64,000 bases of DNA from Fibrobacter sp. UWR2. GTDB lineage: Bacteria > Fibrobacterota > Fibrobacteria > Fibrobacterales > Fibrobacteraceae. The notes beneath the pieces were generated by a model, which worked only from the letters and a program-made list of their open reading frames with translations, was not told the DNA's origin and made no database searches. Shown here one piece after another: positions 8,245-47,582 of the stretch. Both the position numbers and the translations under genes were made by a program. Where the stretch lies: assembly GCF_002210285.1 (NCBI RefSeq), contig NZ_MWQE01000008.1, forward strand, positions 1-64,000, read 5' to 3'. The stretch's first letter is position 1. Each line of letters starts with the position of its first letter.

Positions 8245-9216
8245 ATGATTCTCCGCAAGCCCGATTTCTACGACAAGTTCAAGTGCATCGCTTCACGGTG
8301 CACGGACACCTGCTGTGTCGGGTGGGAAATCGACGTAGACGAGGCATCGCAAGAAGCCTACCGCAAGGTCGCGGGGACATTCGGCGACAAGCTCCGCGCC
8401 AACATCGAGGATGGCCATTTCAAGCTGCTCCCCCATGACCGCTGCCCATTCCTGGACGCAAACAACCTCTGCGAAATATATGCAAACCTTGGCGAGGGCG
8501 CACTCTGCGACATCTGCCGCGAGCACCCTCGATTCGTAGAAGTGTACGGCGATATCATGGAACGTGGCCTCGGGCTCTGCTGCGAAGAGGCAGCAAGGCT
8601 TTTGCTCGAAGGCGAAGGCCCGCTCGCATTCACGACCAAGGAATGCGACGAACCCGAAGACGAAATCGACGAGGAAGACCGCGAAATCCGGGACCAGGTC
8701 CTCTGCGAGCGGGAAAAGTTTTTCACGGCGCTTGCTGACAGCACAATTCCTCTCAGCGAAAGAGTCCTGCAGGTATTCGGCTACAAGGGAGACAACGTCT
8801 TCGCACCGTTCAACGATGCAAGAGAGATATACGCACTCCTCGAGAAGACCGAAAGTTTCGGCCCCGCATGGGACGACACCCTTTCACGAATCAAGGTCCG
8901 CATCGAAACCTCTGGCAGCATAATGCAGAACGACGCATCAGCGAAAAACGCCACCGCTTTTCAGGGCGAAAGCGATTTCACGGATAACGAAAGCGCAAGG
9001 CTTCTCGCCTACCTCATCTACCGGCACTACGCCAAATGCCTTTTCGACGGACGTGAACAAGGCAAACTCCAATTTGCGCTATTCTTCTGGAACGCGGCAA
9101 GGCTATTTACCAAGGAATTTGGGGGCAAGGTAAACGCCATCAAGATGCTTTCCAGGCAACTGGAATATTCCGACGAGAATATGGAAATTCTTGAAAGTGC
9201 TCTAGACAGTCTCTAG
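8245..9216 (+). CDS. FliB-like lysine N-methylase family protein
   Basis: About 323 residues. The start at 8245 gives MILRKPDFYDKFKC, the usual beginning of FliB (flagellin lysine-N-methylase) proteins; an earlier ATG at 8176 would add 23 unrelated residues. The conserved Cys cluster C-x3-C-x3-CC (ASRCTDTCCVGWEIDV) is followed by CPFLDANNLCEIY, LCDICREHPR and LGLCCEEAARLLL, together giving the metal-binding pattern of the family. In Salmonella FliB methylates flagellin lysines. No flagellar gene is in this window and Fibrobacter is non-flagellate, so the substrate is probably another surface protein. It overlaps the convergent sensor-like gene by 4 bases. Confidence 0.8.
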   Translation: MILRKPDFYDKFKCIASRCTDTCCVGWEIDVDEASQEAYRKVAGTFGDKLRANIEDGHFKLLPHDRCPFLDANNLCEIYANLGEGALCDICREHPRFVEVYGDIMERGLGLCCEEAARLLLEGEGPLAFTTKECDEPEDEIDEEDREIRDQVLCEREKFFTALADSTIPLSERVLQVFGYKGDNVFAPFNDAREIYALLEKTESFGPAWDDTLSRIKVRIETSGSIMQNDASAKNATAFQGESDFTDNESARLLAYLIYRHYAKCLFDGREQGKLQFALFFWNAARLFTKEFGGKVNAIKMLSRQLEYSDENMEILESALDSL

Positions 9217-10202
9217 GAAATTTTCCGAAGGGTAAACACGACAGAAGAGGGCTTCCCCTGTTCATCCTTCTCCACAAGGATAAACGAGAGTTGGCACCTG
9301 CCATGCAGTTTTCCCATACATTCCCTATAGATCATGCTTTCCTTTTCAAGGCGAGCCGGAAGTGTACTCAAATCCAGGAACTCCAGCATCTGCTGTTTAT
9401 CCTCATTTTCCACAAGAGCAAATACGCCACGCTCGATATTGGCCGCCAGCCCATCCTCATCGTGAACGACATCGGACACAAAACGGTCACGCTGGACAAC
9501 CTCATAGTTCATTGTTTTGAGGTCTATCACATAGACACACTGGTACAGGGACGTAACGGCGCGAGTAACGCGATCCTTATGTTCCTCGTCCCGATACTTC
9601 TTGTCGAGAACAATGTTGCTGGTATAAATGCTCCTGAAATGGTTCGATATACGATTACACAGGTAGTAGCCAGCGACACCTATTGCAATCGATTCAATCG
9701 TATATCCGCCCATCACACCCAAGAACCATTCCAGCGGTTCGTGCAGATCGTTACGCAGACTAAACCTGAAATCGCTAACGGCAGCATTCGATACGAGAAT
9801 CATCACATAATTCATCACGACACTTATGATGTAGATTCGCCGTTCGCAATAGAACAAACTTACCATCGGCACAAGTGCATATGTGATATACACGCCCACA
9901 TGTGCAACACACATGAACATCAGCACCAGCATGAACCCGATAAGCCCCCAGAACACCGTAATCATATTCATGGGATAGTACTTGTTCAGGAACTGTTGGC
10001 CATATGACAGCAAAACAAGTATAATAGTCACACAGAGGCATGCAATGTACGATACATCGCAGTACCCCAAAAAGCGATCGAGAGCAATGGCTGGTCCAGC
10101 AAACGCGCAAAACAGAAGAATCCGCGACATGGATTCGTTCATGGAACGGCGGTTCCTGAGTAGAAAAGTTTCGTATTGGCTTTTGCGGCCTTGTTCTTCC
10201 AT
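9213..10202 (-). CDS. Membrane sensor-like protein without an output domain
   Basis: About 329 residues. Six or so hydrophobic segments occupy residues about 25-190, resembling the integral-membrane sensor part of Fibrobacter histidine kinases or diguanylate cyclases. A short linker with DKKYRDEEHKDRVTRAV leads to a PAS-like region (VYVIDLKTMNYEVVQRD...STLPARLEKESM...FILVEKDEQGKPSSVVFTL). In related signalling proteins a kinase or GGDEF domain follows, but here the frame stops directly after VVFTLRKIS. Either it is a truncated receptor or a stand-alone ligand/partner protein. The ATG at 10202 is preferred over a TTG four codons upstream. The 3' end overlaps the FliB-like gene by 4 bases. Confidence 0.6.
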   Translation of the reverse strand: MEEQGRKSQYETFLLRNRRSMNESMSRILLFCAFAGPAIALDRFLGYCDVSYIACLCVTIILVLLSYGQQFLNKYYPMNMITVFWGLIGFMLVLMFMCVAHVGVYITYALVPMVSLFYCERRIYIISVVMNYVMILVSNAAVSDFRFSLRNDLHEPLEWFLGVMGGYTIESIAIGVAGYYLCNRISNHFRSIYTSNIVLDKKYRDEEHKDRVTRAVTSLYQCVYVIDLKTMNYEVVQRDRFVSDVVHDEDGLAANIERGVFALVENEDKQQMLEFLDLSTLPARLEKESMIYRECMGKLHGRCQLSFILVEKDEQGKPSSVVFTLRKIS

Positions 10203-10324
10203 AGATATACCCAAACTTTCCCCCTAACTCCGATATAAGATAAAATAACAAAAATTGCAGCCAAATGAAATAGCCGCAACTTTATTGTAAGAATTAAGTT
10301 AGATAGAATTTGGGAAGGCTACCT

Positions 10325-43161: not shown

Positions 43162-43836
43162 TTAAATAAAATACGGGTAGATATAGTCTTCAGCTAGCTG
43201 CGGGAGGTTCGCGAGGATGGCGTCCTTACAGGCGATATCGCTCTTCTCGTATATGCCGCGGAGTGTTTCCAGGGAAAATCCTTCCAGCAGTCTGCGAGAC
43301 GTAGGCAGGTGAGCGATGTGCCAGCCTTCGGGCTTGATCTTTCCCCTGCCAGGGACGAACACACGGTTGAAGCCGAAGGCTTCGTTTGCGGCAAAGCGCG
43401 CATCCAGGAACTCATGGAATTTGGCAAACATTCCCGTACACTCGTCGGGAGTCAGTTGCACCTCGTAACCTTCGGGGCAAGCGTTAGCGTCGACTACGTC
43501 GATGTCGGTCCCCAGATGGTGACGGCTTGCACCGGGAAGCGCAGACCATGTGAGAATCGCATACATCAGTTCTTCTTCGTCAGCAGGGCGCTGCATGGGC
43601 TTACCGAATTCATCGAGCAGCGGGAGCTCGCCTGCGGCCTTGCGGTTCCAGATGGAAAGTTGTTTTTCGAACGGGCGGTAAGCCGATTCCAGACGAAGGC
43701 GGAAACCGTTCCCTTCTAGAAGTGCGGCAAGACGCGCGAGGTCATCGCAGATTTCTTTACAGACAAAATAACTGCTTTGAAATTCAACTAGTTCCGGCGA
43801 GCCAAGACCATAGGGCAACAGGTTTTGCGTACTCAT
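43162..43836 (-). CDS. M15-family D-Ala-D-Ala carboxypeptidase (VanY-like)
   Basis: About 224 residues from the ATG at 43836. The M15 zinc motif is SRHHLGTDID (Ser104, His106, Gly109, Asp113) and the second is EGWHIAH. SAYRPFEKQ at 51-59 is the usual substrate Arg region. Fold members trim D-Ala from peptidoglycan peptides. No signal peptide is apparent, so location is uncertain. The ATG overlaps the ruvC stop codon (ATGA), supporting coupled translation and the shorter start rather than one 13 codons upstream. Confidence 0.82.
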   Translation of the reverse strand: MSTQNLLPYGLGSPELVEFQSSYFVCKEICDDLARLAALLEGNGFRLRLESAYRPFEKQLSIWNRKAAGELPLLDEFGKPMQRPADEEELMYAILTWSALPGASRHHLGTDIDVVDANACPEGYEVQLTPDECTGMFAKFHEFLDARFAANEAFGFNRVFVPGRGKIKPEGWHIAHLPTSRRLLEGFSLETLRGIYEKSDIACKDAILANLPQLAEDYIYPYFI

Positions 43837-44402
43837 TGGAGAGTTCCTCCCATCTTTTCGATAAGCGCCTTCCATTCAGAAACACTTGCCTTTTTCTTAC
43901 GGCGAACCGGCCGGCCCTTCAGGGCTGTCGCAAGCGGCGCCGGGTTCGCATGCGTCCAGGCAATCGCAAGGGCATCGGAAGCATCGAGCGGAAGTTCCGA
44001 GGACTCTATACCCAGTTGTGCAAACACCATATTCGCGACCTGTTCCTTGGAGGCGCTGCCATCGCCCGTAACCGCCTGTTTCACGATTTTCGGCGGATAC
44101 TCGCTGAACGACATCCCGCGACGGCGGCAGGCTACAAGAATCGCACCGCGGATATGCCCGAGTACGAGGGCACTCTTCGCATTCTTCGCAAAGAACACGC
44201 CTTCCATCGCAAGAGCTTCAGGGCGATACTGATCCAGCCTCGCTTCTAGTTCTGTCACGATATGCAATAGGCGGTCTTCGACCGGGAGAGTCGCCTTCGC
44301 ATGGAACACGCCGTATTCGAGCACGTCCACCTTCCCTTTTTCCGCCTTCACGAAGGCATAACCCGTCGTGATAGAGCCGGGGTCGATTCCGAGTATAATC
44401 AT
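43833..44402 (-). CDS. ruvC: Holliday junction resolvase RuvC
   Basis: A 189-residue nuclease. The four catalytic acids are present: Asp7 in GIDPGS, Glu67 in AMEGVFF, and Asp140 and Asp143 in LDASDALAIAW. The C-terminus is basic (GRPVRRKKK) and longer than in E. coli by about 15 residues. The ATG at 44402 has AGAAGG close upstream; an earlier in-frame start at 44492 would overlap the divergent gene and is rejected. ruvA and ruvB are not adjacent. Divergent from the primase/helicase-like gene, with about 80 bases between them. Confidence 0.95.
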   Translation of the reverse strand: MIILGIDPGSITTGYAFVKAEKGKVDVLEYGVFHAKATLPVEDRLLHIVTELEARLDQYRPEALAMEGVFFAKNAKSALVLGHIRGAILVACRRRGMSFSEYPPKIVKQAVTGDGSASKEQVANMVFAQLGIESSELPLDASDALAIAWTHANPAPLATALKGRPVRRKKKASVSEWKALIEKMGGTLQ

Positions 44403-44484
44403 GCCTTCTAAATTAGATAAATAGTTCTTCGGCATTATCCCTTTTGTCAAATTTCTTATTAGATTTTCAAGGAGAGAGGTTTTT

Positions 44485-46365
44485 ATGGTCATCGATCAAG
44501 AGCACACCGGAATCATGCGCAAGAAGACACACCCGAGACAGTTGGGTGTCCCCCTAAACCGCTGGGGTAGAAACTTAATTTCATGTTGCCCATTCCACTC
44601 GCCCGAAGAGACGTCGCTGTTCTTCTACGACGCGCTGGGCTACTGGCGCTACCGCTGCCTGCAATGCGGCAGCGAGGGCGACCTCGTCGAATTCGTGATG
44701 AGAAGCCGTTTCAACGGCATGGATGAACAGTCCGCCCGCGCCGAAGCAACGGAATTCCTGGGAGCCCGCGAGCACGAGCAAGATGCAGACCCCGACGAAC
44801 ATCCTTGGATTAAGGAAATAGGCGGCGAAAAGTCGCGTGTTCTCGAGAACTTCGTACGCTACTGCCACTGGGCCGCCTGCAAGAGCCCGTCTTCGGCAGA
44901 ATTCCTGGAAAGCCGCGGATGGAGCATCGGCCAGGCCCAGCTCTACGGCCTCGGCTACTACAGCGGTGACCCGGAACCGTTCTACAGCTACTGCATGCTT
45001 TCGGGCATCGAGCGTCACCAGGTTTCGTTCTACCTCGACAACCTTGAAGATTACCGCGAACCGCGCATCACTATTCCGGCACGCAATTCCAAGGGGCTCA
45101 TCCATTCCGTGTACGGGCGTTCCATGGAGAACGACGGAGCGCACAACCCCTATATTTCCTACGCCTCGGGCCCGAGCGACATTCCGTTCAACATCCAACC
45201 CGACAACGACAAGCCTATCATCGTAGAAGGCATGTTTGACGCCCTTACCGCCGACCTCGCCGGAATCCCTGGCGTTGTATCGACCATGTACCAGGACCTC
45301 ACGCTGAGCCACCTGTACAAGCTAAAGGCCTGTGGCGCTGAATCCATAACCCTCATTCTCCGCAGGGAGCCGAACCGCAGGGAACAGGAATTCCGCATTC
45401 AGAACTACCTGATGATGGCGGAAGCTCAAGGACTGCGATTCAAGTCCATCGTGCTGCCCGAAGGCGAGACGGTCGACCTGATGTTGCGCAACTACGGTGC
45501 AGACCACCTGCTGAACCTGATTGCAGAAACAGAAGAAGACACCATACATACTCACCGCCGTTCCGTGCTCCTCCAGGACATCAAGGAGAACTACGATACG
45601 GCGATGGGATGCCCGCCCAACGAATGCGTGGGATACACCCTCAACACGTTCCCACAGTTCACTCGTAAGATTGACGGTATCCAGTCCGGACTCTTCTATG
45701 TCTCCTCGAATCCGTTCAGCCTTAAGACCTCGCTACTTTCAAGCCTTGCTCTCGACCTTATCGAGAGCAACCCGACCGTAAAGCTCATCTATATCGCGCT
45801 CGAAACACCGCGACGCCAGATATTCGACAGGCTTATCGCCATGCGCATCGGCAAATCCGTCCTCGACGTTCGTAAGAAGAACGAAGACGAACAGGTGAAC
45901 CAGATGATACTCGAGGCAACGCGCAAACTGATGGAGTTCGTCCGCGAAAACCGTCTGGAAATCTGGGAAGACCACCCCACGTTCGACAATACGGAACTGT
46001 TGGCAACACTCAAGGAAGAACAACGCCAGCACCCCGACCTCGTCGTGATGATCGATGGCATCGACCACTTCAAGGTTACCGACAGGTCCGACCTCGATGA
46101 TATCCACGAGCGTCGTTCTTCCGCAATGCTTGACATCTACAAGTCGCTCGACATCCCGATGTTCCTAGGCGGCGAACTTGTCGATGAGGAAGGCACCCTC
46201 ATCGCACCGCGCGCCTACCTTCGCGATTCCGACGCCATCTACTGGCTCGAAACCAAGGACGGCGAACATTCCCTGACGGTGAATTCCAAGCGGCTCGGAA
46301 ACAACAACCTTTACAGGAGTACGCTTTCCATCGACCCGGAATCAAACCGCATCTGCGAAGCATGA
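44485..46365 (+). CDS. DnaG/DnaB-like primase-helicase fusion with degenerate Toprim
   Basis: A 626-residue protein. A CHC2-type zinc ribbon has Cys35, His38, Cys58 and Cys61. A Toprim-like region follows with VEGMFDAL (Glu248) and LPEGETVDLMLRNYGAD, but the DxD motif is replaced by Arg-Arg-Glu (293-295) in ITLILRREPN. Residues about 360-626 are a DnaB-type RecA domain: IDGIQSGLFYVSS, Walker A NPFSLKTS with Lys414 but no preceding Gly, IYIALETPRRQIFDRLIA, Walker B LVVMIDGIDH, and DSDAIYWLE. The design is like Twinkle/T7 gp4. Primase activity is unlikely; DNA-dependent ATPase activity is possible. AAGGAGAGAGG precedes the ATG. Overlaps the glycosyltransferase gene by 4 bases. Confidence 0.75.
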   Translation: MVIDQEHTGIMRKKTHPRQLGVPLNRWGRNLISCCPFHSPEETSLFFYDALGYWRYRCLQCGSEGDLVEFVMRSRFNGMDEQSARAEATEFLGAREHEQDADPDEHPWIKEIGGEKSRVLENFVRYCHWAACKSPSSAEFLESRGWSIGQAQLYGLGYYSGDPEPFYSYCMLSGIERHQVSFYLDNLEDYREPRITIPARNSKGLIHSVYGRSMENDGAHNPYISYASGPSDIPFNIQPDNDKPIIVEGMFDALTADLAGIPGVVSTMYQDLTLSHLYKLKACGAESITLILRREPNRREQEFRIQNYLMMAEAQGLRFKSIVLPEGETVDLMLRNYGADHLLNLIAETEEDTIHTHRRSVLLQDIKENYDTAMGCPPNECVGYTLNTFPQFTRKIDGIQSGLFYVSSNPFSLKTSLLSSLALDLIESNPTVKLIYIALETPRRQIFDRLIAMRIGKSVLDVRKKNEDEQVNQMILEATRKLMEFVRENRLEIWEDHPTFDNTELLATLKEEQRQHPDLVVMIDGIDHFKVTDRSDLDDIHERRSSAMLDIYKSLDIPMFLGGELVDEEGTLIAPRAYLRDSDAIYWLETKDGEHSLTVNSKRLGNNNLYRSTLSIDPESNRICEA

Positions 46366-47582
46366 TGGGAAAAAAGATGGAAGCCGAAACAGGACGCAAG
46401 TTCACCATAATGGACTTCAACAACTTCTGGAGTCCCTCTGGCGGTGGCGTGCGACGCTACCACCTGCAAAAAATGGCATTCTACGAACAGCAGGGCGATG
46501 TGCTCGAAGTGTTCGTGATGCCCGATGCGAAGACCTTTACCGAAGTGCGCAGTGACGGACTGATTATCGAGCACGTAGAAGCCTTCCGTTTCCCCGGCAA
46601 CTGGGAATACCGCTTCATGTGGAAGCGCAACCAGATTGCGCCCGTGCTCGAAAAGTACAGGCCCGATATTATCGAGGTAGGATCACCCTACATTTTGCCC
46701 ACCGCAGTGCGCCATACCGCAAAGCGGGTCAGCCCAACATCCCGGCTTGTCGCCTTCTGGCACGCAGACTTCCCCGTGACCTACGTGGGCCGCCCTGTGG
46801 CCCAAAAACTCGGAGCCGGCATCGGAAGGTTTGCCCGCAAGGAGGCATTCTGGTATGCCCGAAAGGAATTCAAGGATTTCGACTGCATACAGGCATCCTC
46901 GAAAGAGGCAATGGCAAGACTGCGCAAGAACGGATTGCCAAACCCGCAATGGATCCCGCTCGGGTGCGATATCGGCATGTTCACCCCCGAAAAGCGGGAC
47001 GAATCACTCGTAAGCGAACTCAAGGCCGGCAACCCGGATAGGCTCACGCTGTTTTTCCCACACAGGCACTGTAACGAGAAGGGTATCGACCTTGTCCTCG
47101 GGGCATACGATATCCTTGCCGAAAAATTGGGGCACGAGCCAGCAATCGTCTTTGCAGGTACGGGCCCGAGCCTCCCGCTGGTGCAAGAAGCCGCAAACAA
47201 GTACGAGCACGTGCGCTACGTCGGGTTCATCAACTCCATCGACGAGATGGCACGCTACTACGCAAGCGTCGACATCGGGCTTGCGCTATCGGGCTGGGAG
47301 ACCTTCGGGCTCTCGATTCTCGAGAGCATGGCCAGCGGAAACGCGCTTGTCGGGGCATCCGCAGGCGCCGCATTCGAACACGTGACCGAATCGGGTGCAG
47401 GCACAATCCTCAAGGAACGTACGCCACAGGCCCTCGCCGAAGCGATTGTAGAACTTTACCATTCCGACCTCAATGCAATGAAAAAGCGCGCTCGCGCATA
47501 TGCCGAGAAGTTCAGCTGGAACGACTGCTTTAAGCGACAGCTGAACCTCTACCGTAAAGTTGCAGAGAGTCCAAAACAATAA
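46362..47582 (+). CDS. GT4-type glycosyltransferase
   Basis: A 406-residue GT-B enzyme. The N-terminal domain has NNFWSPSGGGVRRYHLQKM (GGG nucleotide-loop region) and the C-terminal domain has LTLFFPHRHCNEKGIDLV, IVFAGTGPSL, the EX7E motif ETFGLSILE and SGAGTIL. It should transfer a sugar from an activated donor in cell-envelope glycan synthesis; donor and acceptor are unknown. It starts in an ATGATG that overlaps the previous stop by 4 bases, and an internal ATG at 46377 is a possible alternative. The LtaS-type gene follows after about 18 bases. Confidence 0.88.
   Translation: MMGKKMEAETGRKFTIMDFNNFWSPSGGGVRRYHLQKMAFYEQQGDVLEVFVMPDAKTFTEVRSDGLIIEHVEAFRFPGNWEYRFMWKRNQIAPVLEKYRPDIIEVGSPYILPTAVRHTAKRVSPTSRLVAFWHADFPVTYVGRPVAQKLGAGIGRFARKEAFWYARKEFKDFDCIQASSKEAMARLRKNGLPNPQWIPLGCDIGMFTPEKRDESLVSELKAGNPDRLTLFFPHRHCNEKGIDLVLGAYDILAEKLGHEPAIVFAGTGPSLPLVQEAANKYEHVRYVGFINSIDEMARYYASVDIGLALSGWETFGLSILESMASGNALVGASAGAAFEHVTESGAGTILKERTPQALAEAIVELYHSDLNAMKKRARAYAEKFSWNDCFKRQLNLYRKVAESPKQ

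Follow-up and report, generated by a model that had tools for sequence, protein, structure and literature searches.

What remains of a primase-helicase once its catalytic residues have been altered? The question is raised by a chromosomal gene of Fibrobacter sp. UWR2, a member of a major group of fibre-degrading gut bacteria. Known primase-helicases are functional enzymes of replication; those of metazoan mitochondria are helicases that have lost priming alone. In the window (the whole 64,000-nucleotide stretch of DNA analysed), an initial annotation described the gene at 44485–46365 (+) as a Twinkle/T7 gp4-like fusion and suggested a non-priming helicase or a regulatory relic. We call it PH, for pseudo-primase-helicase gene.

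Domain architecture and fold of PH

PH is an intact open reading frame of 626 residues with an ATG start, preceded by the Shine-Dalgarno-like AGGAGAGAGG (44470–44479, +). In nearly all orthologues the start codon aligns with this ATG and has a purine-rich site ahead of it. The chain, encoded throughout on the (+) strand, begins with a DnaG-type CHC2 zinc ribbon (residues 14–95; 44524–44769), whose ligands are C35-P-F-H38 and C58-x2-C61, followed by a DNAG_N-like N-terminal part of the primase core (residues 114–240; 44824–45204) and a Toprim-like domain that has lost its metal site (residues 241–350; 45205–45534). A predicted linker helix (residues 357–375; 45553–45609) sits where T7 gp4 and Twinkle have their ring-forming linker helix and leads into a DnaB-like RecA domain (residues 389–626; 45649–46362). 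The zinc ribbon matches Pfam Zn_ribbon_DnaG (PF01807, E=1.4e-8) above the cut-off, and the RecA part matches DnaB_C (E=3.3e-5) just under the model cut-off. Matches to Toprim_4 and DNAG_N are weak, and TIGR01391 dnaG aligns with residues 22–217 (E=6e-21) far below its model cut-off. The Pfam scan detected no DnaB N-terminal domain; the primase module stands in its place.

The AlphaFold2 model, built from 42 orthologues, has a mean pLDDT of 78.6 and a pTM of 0.55, with the RecA part at about 90 and the zinc part at a low 45–75 or so. In a full-length Foldseek search, human Twinkle (PDB 7t8b) was the best match, followed by T7 gp4, DnaG and DnaB. By sequence profile, the closest solved structures are those of DnaG (2au3, 4e2k) and DnaB (9dls, 6t66), not Twinkle or gp4; hhalign gave probabilities of 99.7 for DnaG and 84.7 for DnaB, and the RecA domain aligns with DnaB in the register of H1, H1a, H2, H3 and H4. 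Pfam, AlphaFold and Foldseek together place a zinc ribbon, a Toprim primase, a linker helix and an SF4 RecA domain in one chain, in agreement with the fusion first proposed from the open reading frame. The overall build is that of Twinkle and gp4, yet the zinc ribbon and core are of DnaG type. The comparison to Twinkle and T7 gp4 accordingly holds for the architecture and fails for the front half, which is DnaG-like by sequence. The architecture is shared by 83 distinct full-length orthologues, far beyond chance.

Active-site residues across the family

All residue counts refer to these 83 orthologues. Profile-profile alignment sets Glu248 (45226–45228), Arg-Arg-Glu 293–295 (45361–45369) and Leu413-Lys414, exactly as initially annotated, opposite the DnaG VEG, the DnaG DxD and the DnaB GKT, respectively. 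The zinc ligands C35, H38, C58 and C61 are invariant (83/83), as is the basic motif R200-N201-x-K203-G204 of the core. Glu248, the counterpart of the catalytic Glu of DnaG, is retained in UWR2 and not fixed in the family (E 69, Q 12, S 1, P 1). At the former DxD, the first position is Arg in 80/83, with Asp only in the deepest homologue (L096, DKH), the middle position holds Arg or Lys in 83/83 and the third an acidic residue, Glu or Asp, in 78/83, giving the consensus R[RK][ED] in nearly all members. Four arginines (293, 294, 298 and 299) lie within this former Toprim metal loop, and R298 is nearly invariant. Asp252 is present in 83/83 and Asp331 in 80/83, the other three having Glu. A DxD elsewhere in the homologues would have spoken against the annotation; no other conserved DxD position was found in the Toprim-like region of the 83 sequences. 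The template-binding KYxN of DnaG is absent and mostly replaced by P/T-Y-I/V-S/T. DnaG controls from the phylum are canonical at VEG, DxD and KYxN in 17/17. Since the Toprim metal site is lost in all homologues, PH almost certainly does not make primers, as far as sequence can tell.

The canonical SF4 Walker A motif reads Gly-Lys-[Thr/Ser]. In PH it is altered to SNPFSLKT (residues 408–415; 45706–45729), with Leu413 in place of Gly, and the Gly before Lys is found in 0/83 orthologues (position 413: L73/F4/H2/Y2/D2); DnaB controls from the phylum have GKT in 31/31. Gly412, one position earlier, occurs in 72/83 and could soften the Leu413 substitution, leaving a residual ATPase. Lys414 is kept in 82/83 and Thr or Ser415 in 82/83. 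The H1a catalytic position, Glu440 (45802–45804), has 76 E, 6 D and 1 K, and Asp524, in the Walker B strand LVVMID (46039–46056), is invariant (83/83). At the Arg-finger position Lys602-Arg603 (46288–46293), Arg603 is present in 75/83 and is N or I in 8. Glu440 and Arg603 are lost together in some lineages: PH of genus g6 carries E440D, E564S and R603N, and the full-length L102 orthologue (8436–10310, −) has a P-loop of SLSS with E440K and R603N. Since Lys414, Thr/Ser415 and Asp524 are kept, nucleotide binding by most members is probably still under selection. ATP-driven translocation would be weak or absent. Of the suggested non-priming helicase, "non-priming" survives the family comparison, and "helicase" becomes doubtful because no member has the P-loop Gly and some lineages have also lost the P-loop Lys, the catalytic Glu or the Arg finger.

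A second DnaB paralogue, of 464 residues, was observed in one Fibrobacter genome (G117; L175:4741–6135, −). Its Walker A reads ARPGIGMKTF, its H1a Glu is changed to Asp and the canonical Arg finger is absent. It is another degenerate DnaB, seen in 1/46 sampled genomes.

Distribution, neighbourhood and selection

Of 168 Fibrobacterota genomes searched in six frames, 97 had full-length PH orthologues, comprising 80/80 of its own genus and 17/18 across eight other genera. Overall, 97/98 genomes in nine Fibrobacteraceae genera carry PH, the sole miss being a genome that is 71% complete; named records with the gene include Fibrobacter succinogenes, Fibrobacter sp. and relatives. The same search gave only DnaG-like matches in genus g4 (12 genomes), genus g2 (1 genome) and other families. 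Followed across the searched genomes of the phylum, PH is restricted to Fibrobacteraceae and its motif losses are shared.

As annotated, PH stands opposite ruvC (43833–44402, −; likely start 44402), across a gap of 82 bp. Outside the two deepest lineages (L095 and L096), ruvC is the divergent neighbour of PH, save in L104, where some 2.7 kb separate the two genes. A VanY-type D-Ala-D-Ala carboxypeptidase open reading frame (window 43162–43875, −) begins inside the final part of ruvC, and these two stay paired across most of Fibrobacteraceae. SOS control of PH was considered and rejected: for a LexA-like motif of Fibrobacter, the ruvC-PH gap held no match and matches in the window were not above chance. 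On the other side, the overlapping downstream gene proved to be a GT4-family glycosyltransferase (GT; 46362–47582, +), whose start shares 4 bp with the PH stop (ATGA, 46362–46365). Wherever a locus extends far enough (L038–L114, L095 and L096 included), GT comes next after PH, with an overlap of TAATG, TGATG or ATGA in most loci and a gap of at most about 23 bp elsewhere, the choice of GT start being uncertain in four loci. Its best NCBIfam model, N-acetylglucosaminyl phosphatidylglycerol synthase, is matched far below the cut-off. GT does not depend on PH everywhere, since other families and genus g4 have it without PH. In g4, the place of PH directly upstream of GT is taken by an RNase HI gene, with an RNase H1 N-terminal domain and an RNase H domain (L116:4460–5416, −, with equivalents in L117 and L119–L121; L118:6749–7657, −). 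In the GT tree, a rough guide to the species with long branches, the two deepest PH lineages fall near the outgroup and g4 lies between those and the rest, which is consistent with one early gain of PH and its loss in g4.

Whole-gene pairwise dN/dS of PH, from a simple counting method, is 0.04–0.11. By part, the zinc ribbon and the N-terminal core are lowest in most pairs (0.015–0.10), and the Toprim and RecA parts range over 0.05–0.18. The identity of PH to its congeners is close to or higher than that of the adjacent ruvC, and its GC content equals that of the flanks. An intact gene under such selection and present in 97/98 genomes does not fit the proposed "relic". Nor was a prophage signature found when the possibility of a recent degraded prophage copy was pursued: degradation, patchy presence and phage neighbours are missing, and selection, near-universality, neighbours and GC all argue against it. 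The dnaG, dnaB and radA genes of the genome itself are separate, intact and canonical, so a role of PH as a replacement of any of the three is rejected. A defence function was likewise set aside, as PADLOC matched only the DnaG-like zinc region shared with DRT models.

Searches beyond Fibrobacterota were pattern-limited or covered phage and plasmid records. With tblastn, the latter yielded matches only to the primase half, at ~25% identity, and no full-length match; pattern scans of viral contigs gave no PH match, a weak negative. A remote homologue with intact motifs may exist outside the phylum. A literature search, with subscription journals mostly outside its reach, found no paper on PH. 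Other DnaB_C proteins of the same phylum (L173–L177) were rejected as PH relatives by profile. In another Fibrobacterota family, the L173 open reading frame (from about 3547, +; 572 residues) encodes a canonical T7/Twinkle-type fusion with an intact DxD-type Toprim site (DND) and a P-loop of CGKS; by profile, it is not a relative of PH. PH itself is best read as a pseudo-enzyme specific to Fibrobacteraceae, inherited vertically and descended from a primase-helicase.

Possible roles and comparison with known systems

With modest confidence, we lean towards PH being a non-priming, probably non-translocating scaffold that forms rings or filaments, binds nucleic acid and is possibly tied to GT. 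Its ancestor would have been a primase-helicase in which a DnaB-like ring domain was joined to the zinc ribbon and primase core of DnaG. In PH, as the architecture suggests, single-stranded DNA or RNA would bind to the zinc ribbon and the basic core, and the linker helix together with the RecA domain would drive oligomerisation, by analogy with T7 gp4 and Twinkle, whose linker is required for the ring (PMC7231222). PH may sense a nucleotide or some other anionic ligand without consuming it. Translation together with GT suggests, as the weakest step, that PH is probably required when GT is, and a functional PH-GT partnership is speculative. A precedent is BcsE of a polysaccharide-secretion system, whose degenerate RecA fold still oligomerises, probably with no need of ATP (PMC7439463). 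The scaffold reading is supported by the family-wide motif loss beside canonical controls, the strong purifying selection and the invariant zinc ligands, by L102, in which a full-length frame persists although Arg finger, P-loop Lys and catalytic Glu are all replaced, by g6 without the Arg finger, and by the separate dnaG, dnaB and radA and the GT that follows PH in all loci. Against it stand the retained Lys414, Thr/Ser415 and Asp524, the Glu440 and Arg603 of most members, the Gly412 that could soften the loss of the P-loop Gly, the GT genes found where PH is absent, and the low confidence of the modelled zinc ribbon.

That same retention of K414, T/S415, E440, D524 and R603 in most orthologues is what an active helicase would predict: like metazoan Twinkle without priming, it would hydrolyse nucleotide, with a non-canonical P-loop, and its task near ruvC would be DNA unwinding for repair or the restart of forks. 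Twinkle as the top fold match in the PDB and the divergent ruvC of most genera point the same way, and metazoan Twinkle provides a precedent for the loss of priming alone (PMC7231222, PMC3610141). We consider this unlikely though credible, as the P-loop Gly occurs in 0/83, g6 lacks the Arg finger and an H3 residue, the gene persists in L102 without the P-loop Lys or catalytic Glu, and ruvC is not adjacent in the two deepest lineages. An active primase with a relocated metal site is very improbable: the zinc ribbon, Asp252, Asp331 and mostly Glu248 are available, but no other DxD is conserved, Glu248 is Q, S or P in 14 members, KYxN is lost and dnaG is encoded separately. The chance that PH is a decaying prophage or plasmid remnant is close to nil; its architecture is phage-typical, and the low dN/dS, the near-universal presence, the conserved housekeeping neighbours, the GC content and the missing full-length match in phage and plasmid records all oppose it.

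Two further possibilities turn on GT. The replacement of the acidic metal loop by a conserved basic one with a nearly invariant R298 would suit a pseudo-Toprim pocket (R293, R294, R298, R299) that binds a phosphorylated or alarmone-like ligand, the ring then controlling membrane glycan or glycolipid synthesis. GT with overlapping codons in every PH locus, its best model, though well under cut-off, and BcsE as an analogue would agree with such a regulator, which we regard as distinctly unlikely because GT occurs without PH in g4, with an RNase HI gene upstream, and the strongest selection, on the zinc ribbon, argues for nucleic-acid binding. It is rather unlikely that both enzymatic sites of a replicative primase-helicase were lost in the Fibrobacteraceae ancestor and that PH is now a nucleic-acid- or ligand-sensing ring coupling the state of the chromosome to the synthesis of membrane glycolipids or surface glycans through GT.

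Strong selection and translation together with GT, despite a destroyed primer site and an altered ATP loop, suggest that an old replication machine now has a different job. A near-universal chromosomal family with the primase site lost, the ATPase site altered and the zinc ribbon and core strongly selected would be a replisome pseudo-enzyme, and its fixed link to a co-translated GT poses a testable question, namely the role of a catalytically altered replication ring in envelope biology.

Among known systems, BcsE resembles PH in its degenerate RecA fold, which is believed not to bind ATP yet oligomerises, within a glycan-related operon (PMC7439463), but its domains are unrelated (REC-GGDEF, with neither zinc ribbon nor Toprim), and the likeness is an analogy only. 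PH shares with DnaB the motif register of the RecA domain but has a primase module for the DnaB N-terminal domain and has lost the P-loop Gly. With DnaG it shares the zinc ribbon, the DNAG_N-like core and the Toprim register, but it lacks the DxD, the KYxN and the DnaB-binding C-terminal domain and has a RecA domain fused instead. T7 gp4 likewise joins a zinc ribbon, a Toprim-type primase, a linker helix and a RecA ring domain in one chain; both of its halves are catalytically active, whereas PH is chromosomal, has a DnaG-type zinc ribbon and lacks both the DxD and the P-loop Gly. Twinkle is closest in full-length fold and order of parts, and its metazoan forms also do without priming, although sequence detection relates PH to DnaG and DnaB rather than to Twinkle. 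Metazoan Twinkle has lost the zinc ribbon and remains an active helicase (PMC7231222), whereas in PH the zinc ribbon is still there and both the helicase and the Toprim sites have changed.
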